From a virus, in the IMG/VR virus record IMGVR_UViG_3300042922_001010, positions 1 to 56,683 of that record: a stretch of 56,683 nucleotides of DNA; one strand, 5' to 3'. This document shows positions 15,966 to 31,594 of the stretch, one piece after another. Numbering within the stretch: the first letter of the stretch is position 1; every line of letters starts with the position of its first letter. The position numbers and the translations under genes are program-made. The notes under the pieces were generated by a model. The model saw nothing but the letters and a program-made list of their open reading frames with translations. It did no database searches and was not told the DNA's origin.

Positions 15966-16018
15966 AGTCTGCCGCGATGGGGGCCGCTCTTTGCGCGCCC
16001 GCACGTTCGCGGAAGTTG

Positions 16019-16092
16019 CGACCTCGACCGGACTCGAACCGGTAACCTCCCGCGGGACAGGCGGGCGCTCTGAGCCATTGAGCTACGGGGCC
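16019..16092 (-). tRNA. tRNA-Asp (GTC)
   Basis: Minus-strand cloverleaf: anticodon stem CCCGC/GCGGG with loop CTGTCCC (anticodon GTC) and T arm ACCGG TTCGAGT CCGGT. Acceptor GGCCCCG faces CGAGGTC with one C-A mismatch and one G-U pair, so it is slightly weak. CCA is not encoded. It sits just downstream of tRNA-Asn. Confidence 0.88.
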
Positions 16093-16104
16093 AGGGGTGG
16101 ATTG

Positions 16105-16177
16105 CTCGCGCGGCTGGGATCGAACCAGCGCGCTCCCGATTAACAGTCGGGCGCTCTGCCATCTGAGCTACGCACGA
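16105..16177 (-). tRNA. tRNA-Asn (GTT)
   Basis: Minus-strand cloverleaf: acceptor TCGTGCG pairs with CGCGCGA (one wobble), anticodon stem CCCGA/TCGGG with loop CTGTTAA (anticodon GTT), and T arm GCTGG TTCGATC CCAGC. CCA is not encoded. It begins directly after the HNH gene stop and lies 12 bp upstream of tRNA-Asp. Confidence 0.92.
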
Positions 16178-16483
16178 TCAGGCCAGTAGGCCCGGGTGCC
16201 GGCGTGCCGGCTCTTTGCGGCGGTTGCCGCGTCCGCCCTCGGCGGATGACTTGCGTTGGTGGTGCCACTGGCACAGCGATTGCAGGTTCGCGTCGCTGTG
16301 GTCGTCGCGGCGTTCCTGGTCGATGTGGTCGACCTGGTTCGCGCGGGCGCCACAGATGCGGTTGCGGTCGCTGCGGATGTGCTGGCACTGGTGGTGGTCG
16401 CGCGCGAGGATGCGCGGGCGGATCACCTTTTCCCAGTTTGGCGGGAGGGTGTCCTTGCGAGTGCTGCCCTGCCAGTTCGGCAA
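16178..16483 (-). CDS. HNH endonuclease
   Basis: This 101-aa protein has the HNH pattern: CQHIRSDRNRICGARANQVD, then HID, then NLQSLCQWHHQRKS, including the Cys pairs that hold the structural zinc. The TTG start at 16483 follows AGGGGG. Stand-alone HNH proteins of this size in phages can help DNA packaging or act as mobile nicking enzymes. Here it lies at the end of the early operon, directly before two tRNAs, so a homing role is possible. Confidence 0.85.
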   Translation of the reverse strand: MPNWQGSTRKDTLPPNWEKVIRPRILARDHHQCQHIRSDRNRICGARANQVDHIDQERRDDHSDANLQSLCQWHHQRKSSAEGGRGNRRKEPARRHPGLLA

Positions 16484-16498
16484 GTTGCACCCCCTAGG

Positions 16499-16789
16499 TC
16501 ACTGGTTGAACCAGAATGCTCCGATGATTGCCGCGAGGACGCCGAGTACGATGCCGACTCGAGCTAGCCAGACACCGGCGAGATGCTGGCGGGTTGCGAT
16601 TGCCCCGCCGGCGATGCCAAGAGTGATTGCCGCTGCGGACGCGATGAACGCGAACGGCGCATAGCGCGCTTCGACCGTGACGGTCAGTAGCAGGCCGACG
16701 ATTCCGAGCACGAGCGCCGCGACGGCGATGCCGCTGAGTCCCTGGTTCTCGGTGTCGGCCTCGGCTGCGTGCTGATCTCCCACGGTCAT
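16499..16789 (-). CDS. Membrane protein with two to three helices
   Basis: This 96-aa protein starts MTVGDQHAAEADTENQ. Hydrophobic helices lie at about 21-41 (GIAVAALVLGIVGLLLTV), 46-66 and 75-95. The pattern resembles short DUF4190-like membrane proteins. The ATG at 16789 fits the membrane topology better than an upstream ATG. Function unknown. Confidence 0.65.
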   Translation of the reverse strand: MTVGDQHAAEADTENQGLSGIAVAALVLGIVGLLLTVTVEARYAPFAFIASAAAITLGIAGGAIATRQHLAGVWLARVGIVLGVLAAIIGAFWFNQ

Positions 16790-16821
16790 GCGGGCATCCT
16801 CGCACGGCGCCATTCCGGACG

Positions 16822-16947
16822 CTAGTTCACGGAGCGGTAGAACGCGCCGGCGGCGCGGTCTTCGGCGTCGGAGCGATCCTGGTCAGCGCATTCCTCGGCG
16901 CGCAGCTTGGACGGCCACTCGCCGCCGCATTCGGGGCACGGGCTCAC
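16822..16947 (-). CDS. Tiny zinc-binding protein (41 aa)
   Basis: A GTG start follows GGGGGAG. The protein reads MSPCPECGGEWPSKLRAEEC, then a charged tail. Three Cys near the N-terminus (CPEC and a later EEC) suggest a half zinc ribbon. It starts 1 bp after the stop of the next tiny Cys-rich gene, so the two are likely co-expressed. Confidence 0.55.
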   Translation of the reverse strand: MSPCPECGGEWPSKLRAEECADQDRSDAEDRAAGAFYRSVN

Positions 16948-16948
16948 G

Positions 16949-17032
16949 TCACTCCCCCGTCGCGTTCGGACCGGCCTGGGATTCCACCAGGCACTCGACC
17001 TTGCAGGGCCAGGGGCATGCGTCGTTGCACAT
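16949..17032 (-). CDS. Tiny Cys-rich protein (27 aa)
   Basis: The ATG follows AAAGG. The product MCNDACPWPCKVECLVESQA has four Cys within 14 residues (positions 2, 6, 10 and 14), enough for one metal site. It lies between the phosphoesterase gene and the other tiny Cys protein. It is very short; the ribosome site and tight spacing are the only support. Confidence 0.5.
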   Translation of the reverse strand: MCNDACPWPCKVECLVESQAGPNATGE

Positions 17033-17043
17033 GGGCGCGCCTT

Positions 17044-18189
17044 TCAGAGCACAGTGAGGGATTGCATGTTGAAGCCGTCGTCCGTGATGTCGAACAGCAG
17101 CAGTCCGGGGTCGGAGTCGTCGCCGGCGATGTTGCGGAACCAGTCGGATCCGTTGTCGAGCGTCGGCGCCTGCAGCCACCACTTGCTCCGCCCGCTGTGG
17201 GGGTTGCGGCCAGTCGGGAGGACCGACAGGTGGTGGTAGTGGCCGGTGATGAGGATGTCCGCAGCGCCGACGGGCTGGCCGCCGTGCGTCTGCTTCGCCC
17301 ACCATTCCGGCGCCTTGCCGGGACGGAACTGATTGCCGTGCGCGAGGCCGACCTTCGTGCCGCGGACGTCGACCACCATGGACTCGTCGTACATCGGCGG
17401 GAACTGCCACGTTGCGTCGAGCCCGGCAGCCTTGGCGACCTTCTCGACCTGCTTGTGCACGAAGATCCCAAGGTCGTCGCCCGGGCGTCCGAGGTTCGTC
17501 GAGCCGCGCCGCCAGGCGGTGTGATTCGACGGGACGCACGCGAGGGTGACCGGTCCGAATCGGGCCGCGACCTTCACGAACTCGTAGAGCTCGGTCGCGA
17601 CGAGATCCATCTGCTGCGACAGCGACAGGTCGTTCGTGAACATGGGGTTACCACCGGACTCGAAGTTCTCGAACAGGTCGTTGATGTCGGGCATGAACAC
17701 GGCGTCGGGCTTGCGGCGCTTGAGCTCCGCGGTGAGCAGCGCGCGCTTCTCGGAGAGACGGTCGATGAGCTCGGGCGTCCCACCGCGGGATCCGACCTTG
17801 CCTGCCTGTACGTCAGCGATGACCGGAACGGATGTCTTGCCGCTCGAGGCGGTGACGAGTCGCGGTGCGGGTTTCCGTCTCGCAGTGGCGTACAGGGCAG
17901 GCAGGTCGTGGTGTGTGGACCGTCGCCGGAACTGGGCACGGTAGGAGTAGAGGTCGATGACGTCGCGGTCACCGTTCTCGGTCCGCTTGGACTGTTGCCA
18001 GGTGGAGCACCGGACGGTGTCGTCGACCACCTCGAAGACGTCGGGGTCCAGGTTGAACCGGCGGAAGACGTCGGTCCAGTCCGTGATGGGCGTCTCGGAG
18101 CGGATGCCGGTGAACTCGCCGCCGTCGGGGCCGAACTCGGCGCGGGCGGTGTTCTCGGGCTGGGTGTCTATGCGGTCGGCGAGGCTCAC
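17044..18189 (-). CDS. Calcineurin-like metallophosphoesterase
   Basis: This 381-aa protein has the phosphoesterase order VPVIADVQAGKVG (D-x-x-x-G), VFMPDINDLFENF (GD replaced by PD), ACVPSNHTAWRRG (GNHD replaced by SNHT), VGLAHGNQFRPG and ILITGHYHHLSVLP (GHxHH). Two metal-binding signatures are thus altered. It may be an Mre11-like nuclease or a phosphodiesterase. The GTG start at 18189 overlaps the preceding stop. Similar proteins occur in many actinophage early regions, usually called DNA repair exonuclease or metallophosphoesterase. Confidence 0.75.
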   Translation of the reverse strand: MSLADRIDTQPENTARAEFGPDGGEFTGIRSETPITDWTDVFRRFNLDPDVFEVVDDTVRCSTWQQSKRTENGDRDVIDLYSYRAQFRRRSTHHDLPALYATARRKPAPRLVTASSGKTSVPVIADVQAGKVGSRGGTPELIDRLSEKRALLTAELKRRKPDAVFMPDINDLFENFESGGNPMFTNDLSLSQQMDLVATELYEFVKVAARFGPVTLACVPSNHTAWRRGSTNLGRPGDDLGIFVHKQVEKVAKAAGLDATWQFPPMYDESMVVDVRGTKVGLAHGNQFRPGKAPEWWAKQTHGGQPVGAADILITGHYHHLSVLPTGRNPHSGRSKWWLQAPTLDNGSDWFRNIAGDDSDPGLLLFDITDDGFNMQSLTVL

Positions 18190-18416
18190 AGTGTGCGCCT
18201 CCAAGCGGCGATGGTGTGGATGTTCGCCCGGTAGCCGACGAACCCGTCGGACGGGTCGTCCTCGCGGATGGCGGTCCAGAGCCGCGTCGTCGAGACGTTC
18301 GGGTCGGTCGCCCACTTGAGGATGAGTGCGCGGTGCTCGGGGCTGAGGCCGTCGAGCCATGTCTCGAATCGGGAGCTTGTCGGCGCGGCGGTGTTGATCC
18401 GGTCTGCCAGGGCCAT
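18186..18416 (-). CDS. Hypothetical protein coupled to the phosphoesterase (76 aa)
   Basis: It starts MALADRINTAAPTSSRFETW. The helical body (LSPEHRALILKWATDPNVST, then RLWTAIRED) resembles the small putative HTH proteins found before nuclease genes in actinophages. Its first residues (ALADRINT) resemble the start of the next protein (SLADRIDT), suggesting a duplicated start or a shared targeting peptide. It overlaps that gene by 4 bp. Confidence 0.6.
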   Translation of the reverse strand: MALADRINTAAPTSSRFETWLDGLSPEHRALILKWATDPNVSTTRLWTAIREDDPSDGFVGYRANIHTIAAWRRTL

Positions 18417-18576
18417 GCGTCTCCTAGGAAGTCATGGCCGGATATGCGTCTCTCCGACGGGAGCACCTGTGAAGTTTTCCGCGGGCGTCGATGCCTGCGG
18501 TGGCGGCCGCGCACAATGGGCGGCCTCCCTGCGACCGGTATGCGCGAAAAGGAGGACGCGCGTGCCGGGAGGGTTG

Positions 18577-18640
18577 AGGGGGCGGGGAGAGTCGAACTCC
18601 GGGCGCCGACGGCCAATCCGTCTCGCCCCCGAGCGCCCCC
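18577..18640 (-). ncRNA. tRNA-like element, 64 nt, atypical
   Basis: A perfect 7-bp acceptor-like stem (GGGGGCG with CGCCCCC) and a canonical T loop (TTCGACT in GGAG...CTCC) are present. The middle is only about 32 nt: a CTCG/CGAG hairpin and a GACGG/CCGTC hairpin with a 5-base loop ATTGG, which cannot present a normal anticodon. It is probably a degenerate tRNA or a structured tRNA mimic. The stretch 18417-18766 otherwise holds only the terminator at 18673. Confidence 0.55.
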
Positions 18641-18672
18641 GCGGTATGTGGCGGGGACGGTCTGGAATGACG

Positions 18673-18706
18673 AAACCCCGCCGACGCGGTGCGTCATGCG
18701 GGGTTT
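18673..18706 (-). terminator. Hairpin terminator before the phosphoesterase genes
   Basis: AAACCCCGC pairs with GCGGGGTTT (9 bp), with an inner GACGC/GCGTC stem. The minus strand continues TTTCGTC. It lies about 60 bp downstream of the HTH gene at 18767 and upstream of the tRNA-like element, so it should end the long early transcript or leave downstream genes to readthrough. Confidence 0.75.
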
Positions 18707-18766
18707 AGAGCGTGGGATTGACCCAACCCTAGATACAGTATGGGGTCCGGGTGTAAAGCACAAGGG

Positions 18767-18994
18767 CTAGGGGGAACGAATTTTCCACCTCTTTCCGCCG
18801 ACGGATGCGGCGAGGATATCGGCAAGGGGAACGACTACCGCTCCCCCGGCGTTCTGCTTGCGGATCTTGTCCGCCCGGAGCCACGCGTCTATCGTGACGC
18901 GACTCACTCCGTAGAGCGAGGGCAGGGCTGACAGGTGAATGAGCGGGGACTCGGTCAGGTGACCTCCGCATCCGGAACGGTCGGTTTGGGGCAT
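18767..18994 (-). CDS. Small HTH / excisionase-like protein
   Basis: About 64-75 aa. It contains an excisionase-type winged HTH: LSALPSLYGVSRVTIDAWLR, then ADKIRKQ and a basic end GGKRWKIRSP. The start is unclear. An ATG at 18994 gives MPQTDRSGCGG; a CTG at 18960, five bases after GGAGGT and overlapping the previous stop, is the better coupled option but rare. It lies at the end of the operon just before a terminator. Likely a DNA-binding regulator. Confidence 0.6.
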   Translation of the reverse strand: MPQTDRSGCGGHLTESPLIHLSALPSLYGVSRVTIDAWLRADKIRKQNAGGAVVVPLADILAASVGGKRWKIRSP

Positions 18995-19695
18995 GGGGCA
19001 TACTCGGGGCGCGGGTCGTACTCCCATAGGACGCCAAACGGGTTGCCCGGCGCCTGGTTCAGAGGTGCACTCCGGCGTGTGCCGTCGAAGTAACGCCAGG
19101 GCTCCGGGTCGCATCCTTTCTGAGGCTTCCCTCTTGGCTCGAACGTTGTCATGAACGCCCAGCCGCGCGCCTTCGGTCTGCCCTGGATCCCGAGTACCGT
19201 GCCATCCGGCAGTCCGTCTTCCCCAAGCAGGTCGTACGTCTCCTCTGCGGCCCATGCATCCTCGACTGTCGCCCTGATGGGTCCGTGCTCGTAGACGTCG
19301 CCGTCCACGTGCGCGACGACGCGGTACTCGTGCTCTTGCGGCTCGGCCGCGGACGTCGAGTCTGGGGGCAGCACGCCTGCCCGTTCGGCCACGCGGACGA
19401 TCTTCCCGTCGAGCTCCGAAAGCGCGCGCCCCTGGTGCCCGCCGATGTGCTCGTAAGCGCCCAGCGCTGTGATGGCGACGTCGAGCAGCTCCTCGAGCAC
19501 CTTCTCGAAGGTGTTCGTCACGCCCTTGCGCGGGTTGGCGCCGAGCGCGCCGATGGTCGCAGTGACCACCTCGCCCGATTCCTCGGTGAGCTTGATGAGC
19601 CGGTGCAGGGTGAGTGCCTCCGGGTCGCGATGCGCGTTGCCGGCGTCGATCCATTCGCTGAGGCCTACGAGCGCGGCCTGACTGAGTTCAGTCAC
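18955..19695 (-). CDS. mazG: MazG-like nucleotide pyrophosphohydrolase
   Basis: This 246-aa protein has an N-terminal MazG-type domain (about 5-80) with the metal-binding motifs KLTEESGEV and EELLDVAI. The C-terminal 120 residues contain EHEYRVVAHVDGDVYEHGP and a Trp/Pro-rich end that I do not recognise. MazG enzymes hydrolyse NTPs or dNTPs to monophosphates, and some lower ppGpp. The GTG start (six bases after GGAG) overlaps the previous gene by 8 bp. It is in the same operon as the NAD-salvage genes. Confidence 0.8.
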   Translation of the reverse strand: MTELSQAALVGLSEWIDAGNAHRDPEALTLHRLIKLTEESGEVVTATIGALGANPRKGVTNTFEKVLEELLDVAITALGAYEHIGGHQGRALSELDGKIVRVAERAGVLPPDSTSAAEPQEHEYRVVAHVDGDVYEHGPIRATVEDAWAAEETYDLLGEDGLPDGTVLGIQGRPKARGWAFMTTFEPRGKPQKGCDPEPWRYFDGTRRSAPLNQAPGNPFGVLWEYDPRPEYAPCPKPTVPDAEVT

Positions 19696-20101
19696 CGGGT
19701 TCTCCAATCTGTGCATGTTTCGGATGCGGGGTCTTGGGCCATCCGGGGCGATGCCCGCAGACGGTGCATTGCCCGCACGAGAGGCATTCACCGACGCGGT
19801 CAGCGAAAGGCCACTCCCCCTCGGTGTCTTCGCGGGTGGCGGGCACGTGGCCGCGCACCATGTCGTCGCAAGCGACCCACTGCAGATGCAGCGCTGGCGT
19901 TCGGCGGTGCCGCTCGAACGCCTCGGGGACGATGCCCGCTCGTTTGAGGTCGACGTCGTTCCAGTCCGCCCAGCGGTGAGACGGGAACTCGCACTCGAGC
20001 TCCGGCGATTCGCCGCCCGACATGATGCCGCATACGTACCCGTGGCGTTTCACGGAAGCGCGGGTCTCGCCGCACTGCAGACAGGCATCACGTGCGTCCA
20101 C
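19688..20101 (-). CDS. Cys-rich zinc-binding protein
   Basis: This 137-aa protein has three Cys clusters: MDARDACLQCGETR at the start, an isolated YVCGIMSGG, and CLSCGQCTVCGHRPGWP near residue 110. At least one zinc ribbon is likely. The middle holds an RWADWNDVDL Trp-rich segment. No family recognised. It overlaps both neighbours and is part of the NAMPT/MazG operon. Confidence 0.6.
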   Translation of the reverse strand: MDARDACLQCGETRASVKRHGYVCGIMSGGESPELECEFPSHRWADWNDVDLKRAGIVPEAFERHRRTPALHLQWVACDDMVRGHVPATREDTEGEWPFADRVGECLSCGQCTVCGHRPGWPKTPHPKHAQIGEPGD

Positions 20102-20216
20102 GACTCTCCTCCCACTTCATGTGCCAGTTCGGGTCGCACGACGACAGCGCGACCCGCCCGTGGCTGTAGACGATGCCCACGGCGTCGCCGACGCGGGGCC
20201 AGATGATCCAGGTCAT
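20088..20216 (-). CDS. Hypothetical 42-aa protein
   Basis: It begins MTWIIWPRVGDAVGIVYSHG and contains SSCDPNWHMKWEESRG. The ATG overlaps the previous stop (ATGA) and the end overlaps the next gene. It is a Trp-rich small protein with no known relatives that I can name. Coupling to both neighbours is the main support. Confidence 0.55.
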   Translation of the reverse strand: MTWIIWPRVGDAVGIVYSHGRVALSSCDPNWHMKWEESRGRT

Positions 20217-20500
20217 GCGTTCCGCTCGGCGAGCCGGAGGAGCGTGGACTGAGCGTGGGTGCCGAAGTAGCCGGAGTGCGCCGCGCTGCGGAGGGCTGCA
20301 GCGCGCGCTCGGGCGGCGTGAGCCGCCAGGAGACTCGCGACGAACTTGTCGCACTCGTCGTTCGTCTCCTGGCGGACCCGTACCCACTCGGCGGAAGGGA
20401 TGAGCTCGTGCCAGACGTCGCCAATCTGGTTCACGATATTCCGCGCGACCGCCAGCGCTGCCTCGTCGACAGTGGCGACGTCTGCGGGAGTGTCAGCCAC
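20213..20500 (-). CDS. Hypothetical protein (95 aa)
   Basis: It starts MADTPADVATVDEAALAVAR and is entirely helical in appearance, with an Ala/Arg-rich C-terminal half (LLAAHAARARAAALRSAAHS). No recognised domain. It overlaps the end of the NAMPT gene by 8 bp and is therefore co-translated with it. Confidence 0.55.
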   Translation of the reverse strand: MADTPADVATVDEAALAVARNIVNQIGDVWHELIPSAEWVRVRQETNDECDKFVASLLAAHAARARAAALRSAAHSGYFGTHAQSTLLRLAERNA

Positions 20501-21998
20501 GCTCGTTCTCCCACTCGGCGGCGAGCACCGCGCGCACCTCGGCGAAGGACTGGTAGCGGAGGAACTCGCCGTTCTCCCAGACGGGCTGCAGCAGCGACCC
20601 GGCTTCCGCTTCCGGCGACGCCGACTGGATGAGCGTCGGCTCCCCGAAGATGTCGCGGGTGACGGCGAGGCGGCCGGTGGCGCTGCGCTTGAGTCCGCTG
20701 TCGGTGACCGGGTTTTTCTGGATGTCGCGGCCCTCGCCGTCGATCTCCACCCACGTCGCCTTCATGGCCGACCCGAACGTGTCGCGCGTGACGTACTGGT
20801 AGCTGTAGCTCCCGACGCCGAACACGACGTTGCTCGAGGCGAAGCCCTTCGCGGCGAGGCGCTCGACGATGACCTCTGCGCGCTCGAGCGTGATGCTGTC
20901 GCCGTAGATGGTCCCGATGTGCGGGTCCAGCACCTTGTAGCCCTCGGCGTTCACGGTGCCGCCGAACGTCTCCCAGAGGAGCTCGACGACGCCCTTGTCG
21001 GCCGGCGTGCGGGCGGCGTCGAGCGAGGCCGCCCATCCGTCGCGGCCCGCGAGGATCTCGACGGGGTCGCCGGAGTCGGGTCGGATGACGACCTTGCCGT
21101 CGCGGCCCACGATGTCGTCGCGCAGCGCGGGCAGGATGTTCGTCAGCACGTTCCAGAGATCCCACGTGTCGCTGACGATGCTCACGATGCCGGACGGGTA
21201 CAGGTCCAGCAGTCGCGAGTACGTGTCGAACTCGTCGGCCTCGCCGCCCGCGCACATGACCGAGTGCTCGGTGGCCGGGACCGATACGAGTACGAGCCCG
21301 TTGTCCCCGGCGTAGTAGCGGCGGATCCAGTCCAGCGCGGCGAGGGTGTCGCTGCCCTTGAAGCTGAGGAGGTGGCCGGCTGCGGATGCGGCCGCGGCCT
21401 CCATGCCCGCCATGCCGCGAAAGCTGAAGTCGTGGAGCTGGAAGTCGACGGACGCGGGGTCCGCGCCGGTGACGTCCGCGGCCTCGTCGAGCAGCACGCG
21501 GTACTGGTGCGCGATGGTCGCCGTGGTCGACGGGTGCCACACGGACGCGCTGAGCACCGTCTCCACGAAGTTCGTCAGCCAGAAGAACTCGGGCAGGGTG
21601 TTCTCGACTGTGAACGACGGCACGCGGAGCGGCACGAGCGTCCCTTCGGGGACCGCGGCGAATCGGAGCGGGAGGTACCCGAGTCGGTGGAGCGCGCGGA
21701 TGTGGTCGCTGCCGACCTCGTTCGGTCCGACGATGGACAGGATGGCGCCTTCGTACTCGCGGGCGACGTCGTCCTCGTCCGCGGCGAAGAACGGCGCGAA
21801 CGCCTCGATGCAGTAGCGCTGCAGGAACGCTTGCAGCCCGAAGTGCACGACCTTGTCGATGCCGGGGATGCGGCTGCCGCGGTTCGTGAAGTTCGAGTAC
21901 ACGCGGGTCGTGCCCTCGGGGTACTGGCGGCGGTGGTCGATCTTGTAAGCGTCCGACGCGAGGAGCGGGGCGATGGGGCTTGCTGAGGTGATGGTCAC
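20493..21998 (-). CDS. nadV: Nicotinamide phosphoribosyltransferase
   Basis: This 501-aa protein is full length for the family. It makes NMN from nicotinamide and PRPP. Diagnostic segments are QLHDFSFRGMAGME (about 187-200), SFKGSDT (212-218), SVPATEHSVMCAG with the catalytic-type His245, and VVIRPDSGDP (303-312), which binds the phosphoribosyl group. The GTG start overlaps the stop of the upstream PRPP synthetase, so substrate supply and use are coupled. In phages this enzyme supports NAD rebuilding, known as a counter to NAD-depleting defences. Confidence 0.93.
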   Translation of the reverse strand: MTITSASPIAPLLASDAYKIDHRRQYPEGTTRVYSNFTNRGSRIPGIDKVVHFGLQAFLQRYCIEAFAPFFAADEDDVAREYEGAILSIVGPNEVGSDHIRALHRLGYLPLRFAAVPEGTLVPLRVPSFTVENTLPEFFWLTNFVETVLSASVWHPSTTATIAHQYRVLLDEAADVTGADPASVDFQLHDFSFRGMAGMEAAAASAAGHLLSFKGSDTLAALDWIRRYYAGDNGLVLVSVPATEHSVMCAGGEADEFDTYSRLLDLYPSGIVSIVSDTWDLWNVLTNILPALRDDIVGRDGKVVIRPDSGDPVEILAGRDGWAASLDAARTPADKGVVELLWETFGGTVNAEGYKVLDPHIGTIYGDSITLERAEVIVERLAAKGFASSNVVFGVGSYSYQYVTRDTFGSAMKATWVEIDGEGRDIQKNPVTDSGLKRSATGRLAVTRDIFGEPTLIQSASPEAEAGSLLQPVWENGEFLRYQSFAEVRAVLAAEWENERG

Positions 21999-22855
21999 GC
22001 GATGTATCCGTTCAGGGTCGATGCGAGCGGGATGACGTTGAGGTCGTCCCCTGGGAAGTGCGGCGAGGGGTAGGAGTCGGTCGTCCACACCTCGCCGTAG
22101 TGGGTGCGGAGGTTGTGGGGTGCACCGCCGGAGAACACGCCGTGGCTCACGTAGAGACCGAGTCGCTCGCGGGGCAGGCCGGTCGCTTCCGCGAGTCCCA
22201 TGAACGTGCCGCCCCCGTCGCAGATGTCATCCACGATGAGGAACCGGCCGTAGTCGGGCAGGGGCTCACAGGTGAAGCCGGATAGCTTGCCGGTGTCGGG
22301 GTCGCGTCGCTTCTCCGCCCGGTAGAGCGGCAGATGCGTCGCGGCCGCTACCTTGGCCGCCCGGTCCACGGCGCCCTTGTCCGGCGCGATGATGCCGTCG
22401 TAGCGCTGTGGGCCGCCGCGGTCCGCGTGACCGACGATGTGTCGGCGCACGAGCCGCGTCGGGTCGACGACGACGACGTTCCGCAGCATCGACGGCATGG
22501 CCGGGCTGTGCGGGTCGAAGCAGACGACTCGGTCGACGGAGAGCGAGTTGATGAACTCGGCGTACACCGATGCTCCCCGCGGCACGAAGTCTTCATGGTC
22601 AGCGCGCGCGCCCGGAAGGTACGGGAGCAGCAGCACCGTATCCGCGCCGCGGCGGTAGGCGGCGTCCGCCCACATCCCGAGCGCGAACAGGTCGTTCCCG
22701 TCGGCACCGTAGAGCCGGGCGACCTCCGTCAGCGTCCCCTTCCCGTCGTTCTCGTTGACGACCTTGATGTGGGACTCGCCAGCAGGGAAACGCATGGCCT
22801 CGAACGTCGGCGTCGTCGTGAAGCCGGGTCCGATTCGGGTTGAGAACTCGATCAA
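21995..22855 (-). CDS. prs: Ribose-phosphate pyrophosphokinase (PRPP synthetase)
   Basis: This 286-aa protein is slightly shorter than bacterial Prs (about 310-320). It makes PRPP from ribose 5-phosphate and ATP. It shows LLPYLPGARADHE near residue 78, VVCFDPHSP near 110, and the PRPP-binding loop VDDICDGGGTF at 208-218. It should feed the downstream nicotinamide phosphoribosyltransferase, with which it overlaps. Shortening near the flexible and regulatory loops may make it less sensitive to ADP inhibition, but that is inference. Confidence 0.92.
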   Translation of the reverse strand: MIEFSTRIGPGFTTTPTFEAMRFPAGESHIKVVNENDGKGTLTEVARLYGADGNDLFALGMWADAAYRRGADTVLLLPYLPGARADHEDFVPRGASVYAEFINSLSVDRVVCFDPHSPAMPSMLRNVVVVDPTRLVRRHIVGHADRGGPQRYDGIIAPDKGAVDRAAKVAAATHLPLYRAEKRRDPDTGKLSGFTCEPLPDYGRFLIVDDICDGGGTFMGLAEATGLPRERLGLYVSHGVFSGGAPHNLRTHYGEVWTTDSYPSPHFPGDDLNVIPLASTLNGYIA

Positions 22856-23526
22856 CGCGTCTCTCCTTCGGTCGGTTCAGGTGCGACAACGCAGCCGCCA
22901 GCGAGTGTTCGGGCGAACTGTTCCGCGTGCTTCTCGGACTCAAAGCGCGCGCGTAGGCGGCCAGCGCCGTTACGCACGACGTACGGCAGCGCTGGTTCCG
23001 GTTCGGGTGCGGGACGAACAGCACCGAGAGCGGCGAGAGCGTTCGCCATCATCACTAGGACGTCTACGAGATCCTGGGTGTCGTCGTAGCGCCGGTAGTC
23101 CTCCGCAAGCGCGCGAGCTTGCTGAATCAGGATCGCGACGTGCCCGTCCGGCACTTCGCGGCCGTCGGCTGCTCGGTGCTTGGAGTAGCACGCAGCTTCG
23201 TCGGCGAGACGGTTCAGCAGGCCCGCAGCATCCCCGGCAACGCCTTCGAACTCGTACTCCTCAAGCGCGCCGGCAGCGGTCCGGGCACTCGCGATCAGTG
23301 CGGCCGTGTCGGTGTCGGCTTCTCGGGGCTTGGAGTAGCCCGCGATCACCTCAGCGTCGTGAGCGACGAGCCAGCGATCGAACGCCGCAGCTCGCGCGGC
23401 ATCCTTCGCCTCGCTCTGCGCGGTGATCTCCTCCCACGGGCGCGGTTCACCGCCAACCTCGACGTACTCCCGGATCTCTTGGGTCGTCGGCGTGTACTCG
23501 GCGCGGGCTTCGGGGTAAGTGCTCAT
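22852..23526 (-). CDS. Hypothetical protein upstream of the NAD genes
   Basis: This 224-aa protein starts MSTYPEARAEYTPTTQEIRE. It is acidic and Ala-rich, with helical segments. A C-terminal piece (PYVVRNGAGRLRARFESEKH) resembles the short DUF-type tail modules of actinophage proteins. No catalytic motif. It overlaps prs by 4 bp and the upstream tiny gene by 4 bp. Confidence 0.6.
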   Translation of the reverse strand: MSTYPEARAEYTPTTQEIREYVEVGGEPRPWEEITAQSEAKDAARAAAFDRWLVAHDAEVIAGYSKPREADTDTAALIASARTAAGALEEYEFEGVAGDAAGLLNRLADEAACYSKHRAADGREVPDGHVAILIQQARALAEDYRRYDDTQDLVDVLVMMANALAALGAVRPAPEPEPALPYVVRNGAGRLRARFESEKHAEQFARTLAGGCVVAPEPTEGETR

Positions 23527-23657
23527 CGGTTCGCTCCCTCTCCGTGGCATGGGCATTGGCAGTCCGTCGGCTCGTCGCGCTCGTCATCCCATGCGTTGCC
23601 GAGGCACGCGCGGTGCTTGCCCTGTTCGCAGTCCGGATCGACGACGGGCACCTTCAC
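23523..23657 (-). CDS. Small Cys/His-rich protein (44 aa)
   Basis: A GTG start gives MKVPVVDPDCEQGKHRACLG, then NAWDDERDEPTDCQCPCHGE. The pattern C-x(4)-H-x-x-C ... C-x-C-x-C-H with a central AWD is a recurrent type of tiny zinc protein in actinophages. It overlaps the genes on both sides by 4 bp. Function unknown. Confidence 0.65.
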   Translation of the reverse strand: MKVPVVDPDCEQGKHRACLGNAWDDERDEPTDCQCPCHGEGANR

Positions 23658-24235
23658 GAGATGGCCTCCACGATCACGAGCCCCGATGCGCGCCGGCTGC
23701 CGCGCCTCTGGGACGCGAGCGACAAGACCTCGAGGTCGTAGTCGGTGGCGCGTCCGGATGCGATGCGATGGACGCCGACGATGCGCCAGACCGCGGCGCT
23801 CCCGTCCCATTTGGACTGCACGAGCTCGCCGGGCTTCGGGTTTTCGGTCGCGGGCCGGACCGTGACGTACCGGACGGTCTTCTTCGGGAGTGTGGACTCG
23901 AGGGCGTCGGCGAGCTTCACGATGAGGCTGACGCGCTGATCCGCCGCGGCGCCCGCGCGCACGAGGGACGCAGACGTGTCCGGCAGTCCGACGCACAGCG
24001 CTTCGATGTGGTCTCGAGCTTCCGCCACGAGGGCAGGGTGATCGTTCAAGGGGTCTCCTTCCTGAGAACGAGAGCGGGCGACCGCAGCATTCGCGATCGC
24101 CCGCCCGATGAGGACGTATACGTCCCCGGGTGTGAGATTGTCGTCGGTCTGGGAGTGCCAGATCCGGGTGTGGATGCCGAGTAGTTCGGCGTCCGTCAGG
24201 TCACTCGCAGTCAGCGAGGCCGATGGGCTCGTCAT
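23654..24235 (-). CDS. Hypothetical protein (193 aa)
   Basis: It starts MTSPSASLTASDLTDAELLG. The N-terminal two thirds are helical; the C-terminal third (about 115-193) is beta-rich with KKTVRYVTVRPATENPKPGE and GSAAVWRIVGVHRI. No family recognised. The 4-bp overlap with the downstream gene suggests coupled translation. Confidence 0.6.
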   Translation of the reverse strand: MTSPSASLTASDLTDAELLGIHTRIWHSQTDDNLTPGDVYVLIGRAIANAAVARSRSQEGDPLNDHPALVAEARDHIEALCVGLPDTSASLVRAGAAADQRVSLIVKLADALESTLPKKTVRYVTVRPATENPKPGELVQSKWDGSAAVWRIVGVHRIASGRATDYDLEVLSLASQRRGSRRASGLVIVEAIS

Positions 24236-24263
24236 GTTCGTCGCGCTCGTCAGGTCCGCTCAT
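24201..24263 (-). CDS. Possible micro-ORF (20 aa)
   Basis: An ATG overlapping the preceding TGA opens a frame for MSGPDERDEHDEPIGLADCE, which ends inside the next gene's start region. It is acidic and very short. It may only serve translational coupling between the two genes; I cannot support a function. Confidence 0.3.
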   Translation of the reverse strand: MSGPDERDEHDEPIGLADCE

Positions 24264-25021
24264 GCCGCCTTGTCCTTCCGTCGTCTCTCGCGCTCCGCGC
24301 GCTCTTGCTGGGTCCAGACGTGCTCGATGATCGGGCCGTACAGGTCCAGCCACTCGAACCAGTCCATGGACCACTCGCACTGCTCGTAGCCGAGCCCGCG
24401 TTCGTAGCCGAGCTCGGTGCCGCACGTGACCCGGATGTCGTCCAGGAACTCGAGCGGCGCTTTCCGCCACAGGTGGGCGTAGCGGCAGTTCGGACACGAG
24501 ATCCACGGGATGGGCCGGAGGTCGACCTCCGAGTCCGGCCATCGCTTGAGCGCGGTCTGCATCCGCTTCACGAGCACCACGGCTCGCTTCGCGCCTTCGC
24601 GGGACTGGACGATGGTCTCCGCGTCGTCCCATTCGGCGACCGCGACGCGCGCGATGAGGAACGCCTCGTCGATGGTCGCCGTGGACGGGATGACGTTGGC
24701 GCCGAGCGCCTCCATCAGCCCGTCGGCGGCCATCCACGTCTCGGGCAGGATGAGGCGCTTCTCCATCGTCGTGTCGACGCGCTCTCCCACCGCCTGCGCC
24801 ATCTTCTCGATGCTGCGGAGGTGCACGATGAGGTTCTCCACTCGGGAGAGCGCGTCCTGCGTCTTCGCCCAGCACACGCGACAGAGGTAGCCGACGCTCG
24901 CTTCCCGGGCGACGCACCCCCGGTGCGAGTCGGGGTCTTCGCACGTGGCCCAATGAGCCCCGCGCACGATGCACGGGTTCGGCCTGTCGCCTCGGTTGAC
25001 ACGTGCCAGGTCGTTGGTCAC
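24260..25021 (-). CDS. Zinc-binding protein with two Cys clusters
   Basis: This 253-aa protein has an N-terminal Cys/His cluster (CIVRGAHWATCEDPDSHRGC, then YLCRVCW) and a second one near residue 175 (WISCPNCRYAHLW) followed by a Trp-rich stretch (WSMDWFEWLDLYGP). The middle is helical. This layout is common in actinophage early regions and is usually annotated as hypothetical. The GTG start follows GAGGAG. DNA or RNA binding is plausible. Confidence 0.65.
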   Translation of the reverse strand: MTNDLARVNRGDRPNPCIVRGAHWATCEDPDSHRGCVAREASVGYLCRVCWAKTQDALSRVENLIVHLRSIEKMAQAVGERVDTTMEKRLILPETWMAADGLMEALGANVIPSTATIDEAFLIARVAVAEWDDAETIVQSREGAKRAVVLVKRMQTALKRWPDSEVDLRPIPWISCPNCRYAHLWRKAPLEFLDDIRVTCGTELGYERGLGYEQCEWSMDWFEWLDLYGPIIEHVWTQQERAERERRRKDKAA

Positions 25022-25043
25022 ACAGTCGTGCGTTCCGTGCTCC

Positions 25044-26534
25044 TCAGACTGTTCGGACAGGGGGTACTCCTTCCCTCGAGAGCAGCACGCGAAGCGCGGC
25101 TGCGGCTTGCTGCGGGACGACGCCGTTCCCCGCGGCTTTCAACTGTTCGGCGCGCGATAGGCCGATGGCGGGGTCGGTCACCCAGCCGGCGGGCCAGCCC
25201 ATCATCCATTCGGGCAGTTCCGGGTTCAGCCGGTCCTTGCCTGCCTTTCCGTCCGGGCGGACAGGCGACGGCGCGTCGCGACCGATGACCCTCGCCCAGC
25301 GGTCGACGGCACCCTGGTATGGCCCCCAGGTATCGCCGGGGACGACGACGCCTTGCGGCCGCTCATCGTCGCTGCGCGTGCCGCCCATGGCGTATGCGAT
25401 TTCCGTCGATGAGCCGCCCCGCGTCGCGCGAGGCGTCGGCATCAGTCCGTGCTCGGTCACGTCGGCCAGGGAGACCGTGTGTCCGCCGTCGCGGCGTTTG
25501 TCCGGGTGCTGCGACCCTCCGCGCGACCCGCTGTAGGCGTCCGGAGTAGGGAGCAGAACCGCTCGAGTCAGCGATGGGTGCCCGCCGTTGTAGACCGTGT
25601 CGACCGTCTTCTTCGCCTCGGCCGCGCTGGGCGTTGGGAGCAGCTGCACGGCGATGGCGAGAGGCATCCCCATGCCGTTGCCGTTCTTCGCAGTGAGCTT
25701 GACCCGCTCGCGCCGAGCGAGCCAGCTTTCGGTCCCTTCTCCGTCGTTCGGGTTCATGGCAGCCGGCGTCGGCAGCAGTGTCAGATCACGATTCGACCGT
25801 CCTCGATCTCCTCCCGGATCTGATCCGAAAGACGCATCGTCGCCCGCGGGCGCTCCCTGTTCCGCGGGCCGCCGTCCGCTTCCGCGGCTGCGGGTGTTCT
25901 CAGCAGGCCAAGCGAGGATGAAGACTCGGAACCGGCCATGGGGAGCGCCGATTTCGGATGCTGGTAGGCCGATCCACTCCGCATCGAACCCGAGCTGGGC
26001 CAGGTCGCCAAGAACGGCTCCAAGTGCCCGCAGAGCATGTTGCTCGTCGTTGTCTCCCAGACACCACGGGCAGCGTTCCATGTCGCTATGTGCTTCTGCA
26101 CTCAGCAGTCCTCTCACGTTCTCGATGACGACCCAGTCGGGCCGATCCTCGGCGATGGATCGCGCGAACTCGGACCACAGGCCCGAGCGTGTGCCATCCC
26201 TCATCCCGCGACGGCCACCGGCCATCGAAACGTCCTGGCAGGGGAATCCGCCGGCGCGGATGTCAGTATGGGTGACCTGCCGGAAGTCGATCTTCGTGAC
26301 ATCACCGAGGTTGGGGACGTCGGGGTAGCGGTGCGCGAGCACCTTTGAAGGCGCGGCATCGAACTCAGCGAACCAGGCGGGCTCGGATCCGAAGACCTCG
26401 TCGACCGCCATGCCGAGTCCGCCGACGCCTGCGAACAGTTCTCCCGAGCGGAGCCGCCGAGGGGCGGGGGCGGCGCAACGGCACGCCACCACCCGCCCCT
26501 TGAACCTGCCGCACCAATCGCAGCGTGGGGTCAT
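25044..26534 (-). CDS. DNA (cytosine-5) methyltransferase
   Basis: This 496-aa enzyme has an N-terminal Cys cluster (CDWCGRFKGRVVACRC), then the C5 motifs: SGELFAGVGGLGMAVDEVFG (motif I), AGGFPCQDVSMAG (catalytic PCQ, motif IV), VVIENVRG (motif VI) and KAAGNGVVPQQ (motif X). The long target-recognition part carries four spaced LLPTP/LMPTP units. No matching restriction gene is visible, so it is probably an orphan methylase protecting phage DNA or altering host sites. Confidence 0.9.
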   Translation of the reverse strand: MTPRCDWCGRFKGRVVACRCAAPAPRRLRSGELFAGVGGLGMAVDEVFGSEPAWFAEFDAAPSKVLAHRYPDVPNLGDVTKIDFRQVTHTDIRAGGFPCQDVSMAGGRRGMRDGTRSGLWSEFARSIAEDRPDWVVIENVRGLLSAEAHSDMERCPWCLGDNDEQHALRALGAVLGDLAQLGFDAEWIGLPASEIGAPHGRFRVFILAWPAENTRSRGSGRRPAEQGAPAGDDASFGSDPGGDRGRSNRDLTLLPTPAAMNPNDGEGTESWLARRERVKLTAKNGNGMGMPLAIAVQLLPTPSAAEAKKTVDTVYNGGHPSLTRAVLLPTPDAYSGSRGGSQHPDKRRDGGHTVSLADVTEHGLMPTPRATRGGSSTEIAYAMGGTRSDDERPQGVVVPGDTWGPYQGAVDRWARVIGRDAPSPVRPDGKAGKDRLNPELPEWMMGWPAGWVTDPAIGLSRAEQLKAAGNGVVPQQAAAALRVLLSREGVPPVRTV

Positions 26535-26704
26535 GCGGCCCGTGCGGGGTCGTTCGGGCACGGAAGGGCGGAGCGGCCGTACGGGGTGCGGCAGTTCCCG
26601 CACGAGTGCACGATCTGCTTCACCTCCGGCGCCCGTGCCTCCTCGAGCCACCCGGCTTCCTCGTCGGTGATGCGGGCGCGCGGGTAGCTGTATCCAGGTG
26701 TCAT
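26531..26704 (-). CDS. Small zinc-binding protein (57 aa)
   Basis: It starts MTPGYSYPRARITDEEAGWL and ends with a Cys pattern SCGNCRTPYGRSALPCPND (three Cys). The ATG at 26704 overlaps nothing upstream and the stop overlaps the methyltransferase start. Probably a zinc knuckle. Function unknown. Confidence 0.6.
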   Translation of the reverse strand: MTPGYSYPRARITDEEAGWLEEARAPEVKQIVHSCGNCRTPYGRSALPCPNDPARAA

Positions 26705-26718
26705 CTGTTCCTCTCGGG

Positions 26719-27240
26719 TCAGAACGGGGTGTCGTCGCCGTATGAGCCGGGCGTCGACCACGCGTCGGTGTCGGTCGAGCCGGCGCTTCCGGGCTGTCGG
26801 GTGGCCCACTCGTCGGTCTGCGGCGGCTGGGAGTTGTTCCCGCTCCACGAGCCGGAGTTGCCGCCGCCGTTGCCGGATGCGGCGCGCGTGACCTGCGCTG
26901 TCGCGTAGCGCAGCGACGGGCCGATCTCGTCGACCTCGAGCTCGATGGACGTGCGGTTCTGGCCCTCGCGGTCCTGGTAGGAACGCTGCTTGAGGCGACC
27001 GGTCGCGATGACGCGGAAGCCCTTCGTCAGCGACCCGGAGACGTGTTCGGCGAACTCCCGCCAGACGGATGCGCGAAGGAACAGCGCGTCGCCGTCCTTC
27101 CACTCCCCCGATGCCCGGTCGAAGTTCCGCGGGGTCGACGCGATCGTGAAGTTCGCGACGGGGAGGCCGTTCTGCGTGTACCGCAGCTCGGGGTCGGCGG
27201 TCAGGTTGCCGACGACGGTGATGAGTGTCTCGCCGGCCAT
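26719..27240 (-). CDS. ssb: Single-stranded DNA-binding protein
   Basis: This 173-aa SSB has an N-terminal OB fold (about 1-110): [20 protein letters not shown], then VANFTIAS and [10 protein letters not shown] Gly/Ser/Asn/Gln-rich linker and an acidic tip, YGDDTPF, follow; the tip is the usual partner-binding tail. It coats ssDNA in replication and in recombination by the phage's RecE/Erf-like pair. Confidence 0.93.
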
Positions 27241-27485
27241 CAGACATCTCCTCCGACGCGACGGGCGAGTTCGTCGATCTTGTCCGGCCGGAACCCGGCC
27301 CAGCCGTCGTTACCGACCATGACGACGGGCGCAGAAGCGAATCCGAGAGACTTCGCCGCTTCGAGGTTCGCCGGTTCGGTCAGGTCTTCGGTCTCGAACG
27401 GGATGCCCTTCTTCGTCAGAGCCTCCTTGGTGAGATCGCACTGCTTGCAGTTGGGTTTGGTGTAGACGGTGACGTTGGACGTCAT
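27240..27485 (-). CDS. NrdH-like glutaredoxin
   Basis: This 81-aa thioredoxin-fold protein starts [20 protein letters not shown] with the redox motif CKQC at residues 13-16. A cis-Pro segment (SAPVVMV) and the NrdH-type [12 protein letters not shown] end follow. NrdH proteins reduce class Ib ribonucleotide reductase. None is encoded here, so it would serve the host enzyme to raise dNTPs. It overlaps its neighbours by 1-4 bp. Confidence 0.88.
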
Positions 27486-27856
27486 GGGGCTTCCTTCCTG
27501 CCGCCGAGGATGACGGCGAGGTCTCCGAGGGTCATCACGACCCACTGGTCTGCGGGGTTCGTGGTGCCCCGTCGTTTCGCGACGACGACACCGACGGGTG
27601 CGTCGTCGTTGGCGGCCTCGAGGTGGGCTTCTGCGACCCACTCCGCGGCCTTGATCTGTCCGCCGTAGTCCTTGCACTCGATGACGACGCGTTCACCCAG
27701 CGCTGTGCGGACGCCGCCGATGTCGCCGCGGTCCTTGGCGCCGTTCCGAGCGCGCCGTTCGATGCGGTCGTCGGACAACGCCGCTGCGAGGTACTCCGCC
27801 GTGCGGGTCTCCATGGCGGTGCCCGCCGCCTTCGCGGACGAACGTGACCGGGTCAC
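27482..27856 (-). CDS. PD-(D/E)xK nuclease, resolvase-like
   Basis: This 124-aa protein (GTG start overlapping the previous stop; an ATG 14 codons on is the alternative) has the nuclease core DRGDIGGV followed by ERVVIECKDYGGQIKAAEW, the D-(x)n-E-x-K signature, and a later VVVAKRRG strand. The size fits Holliday junction resolvase- or RecB-like small nucleases of actinophages. A role in recombination or branch resolution is likely. Confidence 0.75.
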   Translation of the reverse strand: MTRSRSSAKAAGTAMETRTAEYLAAALSDDRIERRARNGAKDRGDIGGVRTALGERVVIECKDYGGQIKAAEWVAEAHLEAANDDAPVGVVVAKRRGTTNPADQWVVMTLGDLAVILGGRKEAP

Positions 27857-28389
27857 GAGGTTTCTCCGCGAAGCCGAACGATGTGTCCGTCCAAGCCAGC
27901 GGACTCGAGTGCGGCGGCATCCCGCTCCCCGTAGGCGATGAGCACGCTCGGCGCGCCCGAATTGGCGTTCGCCTTCCTGCCGGTCGGATCCAGGAATGTG
28001 ACACGACCGCGGAGGAACAGGATGGCTGTCGCTTGCGGCCATACCCAGTCGTGAAACAGTGCCGTCTCGGTGCGGGCGAAGATGAGCGCGGTGCCCTGCC
28101 CATGGCGCGCGAGGGCACCCATCCAGTCGGACATCGTCCTGCCGTACGGAGGGTTCAGCCAGACCCGCCCCGTCCACGGAAGCGACAGTCCGTCGCCGAC
28201 TACTTCTGGCGTCCAGACTTCGGTAGCGGTGGGATGCCCGGGGGCGCCGCACGGATCGAGGTCGAAGGTTCCCAGCGCTTCGATTAGGGGTAGCGGCGTA
28301 AGCCACCTGTCGTTTCGCCCGGCGAATGGGTTCTCGTCGAAGATGTCCGCGCGAGCGGATGTCTTTCCGACGGCGAGTGCCCGGCTCAT
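27853..28389 (-). CDS. DNA N6-adenine methyltransferase (Dam-like phage family)
   Basis: This 178-aa protein carries the signature of the phage DNA N-6-adenine methyltransferase family: NDRWLTPLPLIEALG, FDLDPCGAPGHPTA and VWLNPPYGRTMSDW (catalytic NPPY). It methylates adenine, probably in a short site. Being alone, without nuclease, it is another orphan methylase in the same operon as the cytosine enzyme. Confidence 0.88.
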   Translation of the reverse strand: MSRALAVGKTSARADIFDENPFAGRNDRWLTPLPLIEALGTFDLDPCGAPGHPTATEVWTPEVVGDGLSLPWTGRVWLNPPYGRTMSDWMGALARHGQGTALIFARTETALFHDWVWPQATAILFLRGRVTFLDPTGRKANANSGAPSVLIAYGERDAAALESAGLDGHIVRLRGETS

Positions 28390-29339
28390 GCCGCCCCTCT
28401 CAGTTCAGATTGGTCGTACACGGGCAGCTCGAGCTCGCCGCGGACGCGGTCGACCGTCTTCACGCTGCAGTCGATGTAGGCGCCGATCCGCCCTGCCGAC
28501 CATCTCCGCGCGTTGAGCTTCGTGATGACCTCGCGGCGTTCGACCGGCGACATCTCCGGCTTGTCTCCGTCGAGAGCCGCCAGGATGACCGCCTCGTCGT
28601 TACGCGTCAGGAACCCGCGTTCGGTGGCTCCGCGCTTCCACTCCGCGGGCTCCGCGCTCGGGTCGTCGATGACGTCGTCATCCCACGCGAGCGGCGGGGC
28701 GTACCCGTTCTTCGCGGCGATGTTCCGGATGCGCTGCACCTCCCACGTGTCGGGCAGCTTCGTCATCGACAGTTCGTCGTAGAGCGCGGCGACCGCGATG
28801 CGGGTCGGTTCGACCACGAACTCCTGTCGCATCACGCGTGATGCGAATGGGCGGGGCTTGTGGAGCCGTGCGGACAATTCGGTCGTCGAGTAGCCGAGCG
28901 CCATGAGCGCCTGCATTCGGCGGCGGGTGCCCGTGCCGTCGACTCGCTGGCCGGCGTCGATGCTGCGTGCCGGTTTGACGGCGAGCAGTGCGCGCTCCGT
29001 GGTCGCGAAGATCCACGGCACCTTGCCCTTGGTGATGTTCCGGACGGTGAGCTCCGACAGCCCGGCGCGCGCGGCGATGTCCCGCTGCGTCATCCGCGCC
29101 TCGAGCAGCGTGGCGATGTGGGCGGTCGCGGCGGCCGGGTCGACCTCGCGGCGACGGACGCCGTTCGCGAAGCTGGCGCGGCGGGTGCGTTCCCGCTTCG
29201 CGACGCCGTCGCGGCACGGCTGGCACCGGCACTTGTGCGTCTTGTAGCAGGCGCTCGTGGCCTTGTGCGCGTGGTCAGGCGGGCACGAAAAAGGCACCGT
29301 CTCCGGTGCCTTCGTGGTGGTGGTCTGGGCGGCGCTCAA
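28386..29339 (-). CDS. HTH DNA-binding protein with Cys-rich N-terminus
   Basis: This 317-aa protein has an N-terminal Cys/His segment (SACYKTHKCRCQPCRDG) followed by basic residues. An HTH lies near 85-105 (MTQRDIAARAGLSELTVRNI) and a second near 285 (SAGRIGAYIDCSVKTVDRVR). Such multi-HTH proteins are common in actinophages and resemble WhiB-adjacent regulators. The TTG start overlaps the previous stop. A strong intrinsic terminator lies inside codons 10-17, which may make expression conditional. Confidence 0.7.
   Translation of the reverse strand: MSAAQTTTTKAPETVPFSCPPDHAHKATSACYKTHKCRCQPCRDGVAKRERTRRASFANGVRRREVDPAAATAHIATLLEARMTQRDIAARAGLSELTVRNITKGKVPWIFATTERALLAVKPARSIDAGQRVDGTGTRRRMQALMALGYSTTELSARLHKPRPFASRVMRQEFVVEPTRIAVAALYDELSMTKLPDTWEVQRIRNIAAKNGYAPPLAWDDDVIDDPSAEPAEWKRGATERGFLTRNDEAVILAALDGDKPEMSPVERREVITKLNARRWSAGRIGAYIDCSVKTVDRVRGELELPVYDQSELRGAA
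29286..29312 (-). terminator. Intrinsic terminator inside the HTH gene
   Basis: On the minus strand, AAGGCACCG and CGGTGCCTT form a 9-bp stem closed by the GNRA-type tetraloop GAGA and run into TTTTT. It lies about 28 bases inside the HTH reading frame. Either the true start is further on (no good start is seen) or this is an attenuator-like stop relieved by translation or antitermination. Confidence 0.8.
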
Positions 29340-29476
29340 GCGGTCACCCTCGCTACCCGATATTTCTCGTAGCCGCACGCGCGGTTGAGGTACGCGACGT
29401 CCTCGAACGACCACGGCATCGCCGAGGTCTTCCAGGCGCCGTGCTTGCTGTGGCGGTACTGGATGGTCAGGGTCAC
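29336..29476 (-). CDS. Hypothetical 46-aa protein
   Basis: A GTG start overlapping the previous stop gives MTLTIQYRHSKHGAWKTSAM, then a small basic, aromatic-rich body ending YEKYRVARVTA. It overlaps the HTH gene start by 4 bp. No known family. Confidence 0.55.
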   Translation of the reverse strand: MTLTIQYRHSKHGAWKTSAMPWSFEDVAYLNRACGYEKYRVARVTA

Positions 29477-29997
29477 GAGTCCTCCTTGGGCCACATGCGG
29501 TACCCGGCCGCGATCTCGTCCGAGTAGTAGAACGACTCGTCCTCGAACATGAAGGCGCCGCTCTCGAGCACCCACGCGTCGTTCGTCTTCCCCGTCTTCG
29601 TGGTGATGTTCCACACCTCGCGGGGCTTGGCGTCCTCCCACGCCTGCGGGTCGGGATTCGCGTCCAGCCATGCGTGGCCGGCGCGAATGTAAGGCTCCTC
29701 ACCCAGCGGGCGGTCGAGCTTCTCCCATACGGTCCAGTGGCTGAGCGTGTCGGGCTCGAGTACGAGCACGGCGCGGCCGTCAGTGTCGTCGGCGGACGGA
29801 CGGCGGAAGAACAGCCAACCGGGGAAGTCCGGGTGGGCGCCGACGCCGAGGCGAGCTCGCTCCTCTGCTGCGAAGAACTCGCGGGCAGCGTCTTCGTTCC
29901 GATGTGCGTCGATGTAGTCGCCTTCGTTGAACGTCAGGTCGCCGTCCGCGTCGCGAGTGATGGTGACGCCGTTGGTGGCGGTGAAGGGAAGGTTCAT
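29473..29997 (-). CDS. Hypothetical protein (174 aa)
   Basis: It starts MNLPFTATNGVTITRDADGD and is acidic and aromatic-rich, with WLFFRRPSADDTDGRAVLVL and a late FMFEDESFYYSDEIAAGY. The ATG at 29997 overlaps the stop of the initiator gene. No family recognised, but it is the gene co-translated with the replication initiator. Confidence 0.6.
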   Translation of the reverse strand: MNLPFTATNGVTITRDADGDLTFNEGDYIDAHRNEDAAREFFAAEERARLGVGAHPDFPGWLFFRRPSADDTDGRAVLVLEPDTLSHWTVWEKLDRPLGEEPYIRAGHAWLDANPDPQAWEDAKPREVWNITTKTGKTNDAWVLESGAFMFEDESFYYSDEIAAGYRMWPKEDS

Positions 29998-31322: not shown

Positions 31323-31594
31323 CGCATGGAGCCTTTCGCGGTCAGAGCGTCGAAGATGGGCGTTCCTTCTTCCGGCACCACCGATTTCGTCATCAGGACA
31401 CCCTCCGAGCCCGGTTCGTAGGACAGCGTGAGCGTCCGCGTCGGCGGCATGACGTAGTCGGAGAACCACGTCTGAATCGCTTCCTGAACCTCGTAATCGA
31501 CGTGATCGGGGATCTCGATCACGAGACGGCATAGGGCGCCGTCGCTGCCGCGGTAGTAACCCGTCAGCGGGGCAACCTGCACTCCGTCCTTCAC
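31319..31594 (-). CDS. Hypothetical protein (91 aa)
   Basis: The GTG start overlaps the RNA ligase stop. The protein contains LVIEIPDHVDYEVQEAIQTW and TLTLSYEPGSEGV and looks like a compact alpha/beta domain. No family recognised. Its coupling to the RNA ligase may be meaningful or merely operon packing. Confidence 0.55.
   Translation of the reverse strand: MKDGVQVAPLTGYYRGSDGALCRLVIEIPDHVDYEVQEAIQTWFSDYVMPPTRTLTLSYEPGSEGVLMTKSVVPEEGTPIFDALTAKGSMR

Follow-up and report, generated by a model that had tools for sequence, protein, structure and literature searches.

The closest described relatives of the gene pair reported here are the NARP1 systems, which consist of an ADPR-pyrophosphate synthetase (Adps) and a nicotinamide ADPR transferase (Namat). 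The NARP1 enzymes studied are reported to convert ADP-ribose (ADPR) and ATP to ADPR-pyrophosphate (ADPR-PP), and to join this product with nicotinamide to give NAD+ (PMC12774641; PMC11559045; PMC13232231). Synthesis of NAD+ from ADPR, ATP and nicotinamide has been described for the homologues of SPbetaL1 and Paenibacillus foliorum (PMC12774641) and of DyoEdafos (PMC13232231), and the SPbetaL1 NARP1 was reported to counter NAD-depleting defence in vivo (PMC12774641). SPbetaL1 Namat has been solved with nicotinamide (9W5X) and with NAD+ (9W5W), and according to the same report the adenine ring is held by a clamp that combines a loop residue with a helix of the motif GS-X-phi-X-phi-X-phi-TRD, X being aromatic (PMC12774641). 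The ICP1 pair NrsAB was first called PRPP synthetase and nicotinate phosphoribosyltransferase, and was then reassigned (PMC11559045).

We analyzed a virus record of 56,683 bases, hereafter called the window, in which two genes of these families lie within a long and tight run of minus-strand genes. Very probably (about 0.93) the pair is a NARP1 cassette of an actinobacterial phage, rebuilding NAD+ against NAD-cleaving defence. It is most likely a further example of known NARP1 and not a separate salvage route.

The gene pair and its surroundings

The Adps-like gene is located at 21995-22855 on the minus strand (286 aa, TTG start) and matches PHROG 619 with an E-value of 2.3e-66. A ribosome-binding-like AAGGAG is found 7 bases ahead of its start, at 22863-22868 of the same strand. 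The Namat-like gene follows at 20493-21998, also on the minus strand (501 aa, GTG start at 21998), with a match to PHROG 448 at E 2.2e-195. The Adps stop and the Namat start overlap by 4 bases, GTGA, and by analogy with the studied systems the two genes would be expressed on one transcript; a longer Namat reading frame to 22088 is a mechanical extension into the Adps gene. The preliminary description had placed two overlapping genes at 20493-22855, and both reading frames are present where it stated, on the minus strand, with PHROG homology far beyond chance. A promoter and terminator scan of 16000-30000, which is uninformative for this type of organism, found none.

An integrase is encoded at 43093-44400 (PF00589 match), so the record probably derives from a temperate phage. 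Short stretches are similar to Microbacterium phages, with the SSB at about 84% in the best rows among the matches listed, and from this likeness the host is probably an actinobacterium.

Upstream, a gene at 22852-23526 (minus strand) overlaps the Adps start by 4 bases and is probably co-transcribed with the pair, and downstream a gene at 20213-20500 (minus strand) overlaps the Namat stop by 8 bases; both are without assigned function. The same gene run contains a possible MazG-like pyrophosphohydrolase at 18955-19695 (minus strand). The protein gave no match to PF03819 (MazG) at E <= 10 and matched PHROG 671, a nucleotide pyrophosphohydrolase, at E 0.39; its one relative (L142) matched PHROG 671 at E 0.0013 and PHROG 715 at E 0.16. 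An AlphaFold model of the lone sequence had a pLDDT of 42 and was unusable. For the MazG that had earlier been placed in the same operon, the identity is weakly supported, and the gene is not part of the unit.

To describe linkage we used 111 related loci, comprising the best 80 of 102 confirmed viral loci and 31 genome loci, 4 of the latter belonging to the Nampt clade. A match to Adps preceded Namat by at most 700 bases in 71 of these best 80 of 102 viral loci (39 of them by at most 60 bases) and in 19 of the 27 cellular Namat-side loci (6 of them at most 60 bases). The match was farther upstream in 6 of the same 80 viral loci and 1 genome locus, and downstream in 2 viral loci and 1 genome locus; some matches in these positions are weak, at about 26-32% identity, and could be something other than Adps. 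An Adps match was absent from 1 of the 80 viral loci and 6 genome loci, some at contig ends, and from all 4 Nampt-clade genome loci. Searches of the 111 loci (best 80 of 102 viral and 31 genome; tblastn E <= 1e-5, low-complexity filter, flanks of at most 8 kb) gave no hit for the MazG-like gene or for either immediate neighbour of the pair, and for the gene at 22852-23526 no relative was found in phage records either. A larger conserved operon with MazG was rejected on this result: the conserved unit is Adps and Namat.

Some related loci differ in how the two genes are joined. In A3Wally (L014:2995-5914) and Mimi (L017:3001-5604), large Microbacterium and Arthrobacter phages, small unknown genes are inserted between Adps and Namat at the site taken by RyDEP in DyoEdafos, and these could be accessory enzymes. 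PHROG 12872 (547 positions) matches the window Adps with its start and the window Namat with its end, which suggests that fused or shortened Adps-Namat proteins occur in some phages.

Elsewhere in the record, an RNA ligase (31591-32916, PF09414) adjoins a polynucleotide kinase with a PNKP phosphatase domain (32929-33819, PF25109 and AAA_33), likely an RNA-repair pair. Of the 111 loci (best 80 of 102 viral and 31 genome), 34 have a match to the RNA ligase and 36 a match to the polynucleotide kinase, and in Gordonia phage Syleon these matches are immediately ahead of Adps. The record also encodes a DUF4326 protein (37135-37506, PF14216, E 3.8e-21), two DNA methyltransferases (25044-26411, PHROG 363-type; 27853-28389, Dam-type, PF05869) and four tRNAs (Asp, Asn, Gly, Gln) at 16018-16177 and 10912-11143. 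PADLOC matched 0 of 9 proteins. The whole record gave no match to PF02026, the RyR domain of a cADPR-cleaving partner such as that of DyoEdafos, and no macrodomain was found; a partner of this kind was rejected on these results.

Residues of Namat and Adps

Among solved chains searched with phmmer, the Namat-like protein was closest to SPbetaL1 Namat (9W5W and 9W5X, E about 7e-155; 9W5W 7.3e-155), followed by 9KE8 (2e-128) and then by human and other NAMPT (about 4e-75). The catalytic core is identical to that of SPbetaL1 Namat (Phe189, Arg192, Asp215, Arg306 and the catalytic histidine). His245 (21264-21266, minus strand), to which the preliminary description had pointed, is present and is the equivalent of this histidine, with the same number in SPbetaL1 Namat. 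The selectivity-clamp helix GSYSYQYVTRD (residues 396-406; 20781-20813, minus strand) fits the published Namat consensus. At the clamp-loop position Arg, Lys or Tyr is expected, and the window has Arg43 (21870-21872, minus strand), which in the alignment is the equivalent of Arg40 of SPbetaL1. SPbetaL1 Namat contacts NAD through 20 listed residues, 18 of which the window shares. The two that differ are Phe392, which is Tyr, and Ala362, which is Ser, the commonest residue at that position (87/108 Namat-side rows).

For such counts we kept 115 Namat/Nampt rows (108 Namat-side and 7 Nampt) and 99 Adps rows; length-filter failures (for Namat including L098, L099 and L123), the ICP1 Namat with its stop, and exact duplicates were left out. 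The first clamp aromatic, at position 392 (Phe, Tyr or Trp), was found in 104 of the 108 Namat-side rows, the others having His (2), Leu (1) or Val (1), and in 0 of the 7 Nampt rows. The second clamp position is variable (n = 108: Tyr 73, His 12, Met 11, Phe 4, Arg 4, Gly 2, Ser 1, Pro 1), and the DyoEdafos Namat, a working enzyme, has His there. In a maximum-likelihood tree of 36 rows, hand-picked from the 115 and with long branches flagged for KVP40, phiM7 and phiCbK, the 7 Nampt were separated from the 29 others, including the window, with support of 100/100. In the same tree the window Namat paired with the viral locus L018 (100/99). Based on its sequence, the second gene is most likely Namat and not NAMPT.

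Family library models do not separate Namat. The Namat-like protein passes NF006629 (nicotinate phosphoribosyltransferase) with 542 bits against a cut-off of 405, and the names that the libraries give to the pair are PRPP synthetase-like and nicotinamide or nicotinate phosphoribosyltransferase, with no Namat or Adps class among the matches. Such names again conceal a NARP1 pair.

Two Namat-side proteins, from an Acidimicrobiaceae MAG (L116:7749-9470) and from Saccharibacteria (L124:7995-9482), deviate in the clamp, which reads GSHTYQRTNRD, and no match to Adps lies within the flanks retrieved. Their scanned neighbours include a GntR-type regulator, a histidine kinase, a GGDEF-EAL protein and a DinB protein. 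These two proteins may use another donor or partner.

The best PDB matches for the Adps profile are PRPP synthetases, and the kinase-type residues F23, G26, R84, D86, H116, K182 and R184 are invariant among 17 aligned Adps. Against TIGR01251 (PRPP synthetase), the Adps-like protein of the window scored 82.6 bits, below the curated cut-off of 113. Four actinobacterial genomes carrying a pair of this kind served for comparison: their top-scoring PRPP synthetases reached 369-401 bits and the runner-up loci 79-87 bits; two of the four runner-up loci were aligned, and both have the Adps loop. The loop in question is of the ribose-5-phosphate type and reads DDICDGGGT in the window (residues 209-217; 22205-22231, minus strand), with Gly214 at the position of the threonine of the TGGT loop, which we take to be the ribose-5-phosphate loop residue of PRPP synthetases. 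All four actinobacterial Prs have the threonine (DDMIDTGGT), as do the aligned chains of E. coli type and 4TWB. None of the 99 distinct Adps-like rows has it; the residue there is Gly in 89, Tyr in 4, Phe in 2, Ala in 2 and Arg in 2. This count is biased, since similarity to NARP1 Adps was the criterion for collecting the rows. The first gene, judged in this way, is most likely Adps and not PRPP synthetase.

The structure of Adps is stated to be unsolved as of January 2026 and its selectivity to be obscure (PMC12774641). We propose tentatively, at slightly less than even odds, that the lost threonine is a signature of substrate choice belonging to Adps itself, a counterpart of the Namat clamp. 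With Gly, Tyr, Phe, Ala or Arg in place of the threonine, the 5'-phosphate site would become open to ADP-ribose, accommodating its diphosphate bridge and its AMP half. A description of this substitution was not found in the NARP1 literature examined, although the founding Nature 2024 paper may state it, and it is the sole point here that may be new. Should the mark be causal, the way in which the PRPP-synthetase fold acquired ADP-ribose as a substrate could be tested directly through it.

Proposed route and alternative explanations

By analogy with the studied enzymes, the route would begin when a host TIR, SIR2, SEFIR or like enzyme cleaves NAD+ to ADP-ribose and nicotinamide. Adps would transfer the pyrophosphate of ATP to ADP-ribose, giving ADPR-PP, and Namat would let nicotinamide displace this pyrophosphate, giving NAD+ directly. 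With NAD+ replenished, phage replication could continue. As to purpose, the earlier description was right: the two genes would let the phage rebuild NAD with the nicotinamide that NAD-cleaving defences set free. The reactions assigned to them at that time are wrong or unsupported: ribose 5-phosphate would have been converted to PRPP, and PRPP with nicotinamide to NMN, as in NARP2, with the host NMN adenylyltransferase completing NAD+, whereas the sequence fits activation of ADP-ribose followed by joining of nicotinamide.

The library names point to such a PRPP synthetase and phosphoribosyltransferase, and Namat is reported to retain NMN-forming activity in vitro, that of SPbetaL1 making NMN from PRPP at about half the activity of human Nampt (PMC12774641). 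From this activity, formation of NMN from PRPP is likely as a side activity of the window Namat. The window Namat nevertheless does not group with the Nampt proteins of KVP40 (NadV), phiM7 and phiCbK, and it has the adenine clamp, while its partner is under the PRPP-synthetase cut-off and is without the loop threonine; moreover, a separate PRPP synthetase is encoded in each of the four actinobacterial genomes that carry a pair of this kind. On the clade, the clamp, the TIGR01251 score and the loop we reject NARP2 and the PRPP/NAMPT route, to which we leave a very small probability. Gene neighbourhood also speaks against it. A gene annotated as adenylyltransferase or cytidyltransferase adjoins Nampt in phiM7 and phiCbK, but not in KVP40 (2/3 loci); nothing of the kind is present in the window record. 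As the preliminary description had noted, no NMN adenylyltransferase is recognizable: a search of the 56,683-base record, which is possibly a fragment, gave nothing for PF01467 at E <= 1, and the control detected this domain in 14 of 14 genomes. NARP1 yields NAD+ directly, so this absence is expected and neither the host enzyme nor an unrecognized neighbour, as once supposed, is needed to finish the route. A hidden NMN adenylyltransferase was rejected on the same two grounds.

Instead of acting in counter-defence, a NARP1 pair could chiefly serve to increase the levels of NAD+ and ADP-ribose, or to keep them in balance, while the phage infects or is lysogenic. NARP1 pairs are present in bacterial genomes, a self-regulatory role has been proposed (PMC12774641), and the integrase makes a lysogenic phase likely. 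The phage pairs studied, however, are reported to counter NAD-depleting systems (PMC12774641; PMC11559045), and the reported fitness cost of ICP1 NrsAB where no NAD-depleting system is present (PMC11559045) speaks against a general benefit; we regard this role as unlikely. Least probable of all is that the pair is a degenerate, inactive copy. Such decay might be read from the TTG and GTG starts and from the His of the window Adps in the ARxDR stretch, where most relatives have Arg or Lys. The same His is seen in L018, L069 and L119, though, and the frames are full-length, with intact catalytic and clamp residues, the 4-base overlap and the ribosome-binding-like site. Counter-defence by a functional NARP1 pair remains the preferred reading.

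Comparison with described systems

NadV-type Nampt of NARP2, as in Vibrio phage KVP40 and Sinorhizobium phage phiM7, belongs to the same enzyme family and shares most of the residues contacting the NMN half. It differs from the window Namat in having no aromatic clamp and no adjoining Adps and in forming a separate clade, and in phiM7 an annotated NMN adenylyltransferase adjoins the Nampt gene. Sequence alone separates the pair from a true PRPP synthetase and Nampt, by the Namat clamp helix and the lost loop threonine of Adps.

ICP1 NrsAB agrees with the window in both gene families and in their order, and the ICP1 record has a stop in nrsB. The window Adps is 65% identical to that of L018. 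Gordonia phage OneUp (gp100-gp101) and Leifsonia aquatica (L098) have an abutting pair with Namat 66-71% and Adps 41-60% identical to the window; the genes surrounding the pair differ from those of the window, and OneUp has SSB and NrdH-like genes in common with it farther from the pair. In Mycobacterium phage DyoEdafos (MN234187, gp77 and gp79), Namat is 62% and Adps 41% identical, and gp78 (RyDEP, RyR domain) lies between the two genes, where the window has none; the purified DyoEdafos Adps and Namat were reported to make NAD+ in vitro (PMC13232231). The NARP1 of Bacillus phage SPbetaL1 (OQ921341; PDB 9W5W/9W5X) shares with the window the gene order and abutment, the catalytic residues, the clamp motif and the clamp-loop Arg. 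Its Namat is 50% identical to that of the window and its Adps only 26%, with the loop DDLSSFGGT as compared to DDICDGGGT. The window adds to this already wide family a NARP1 pair from an integrase-bearing phage.
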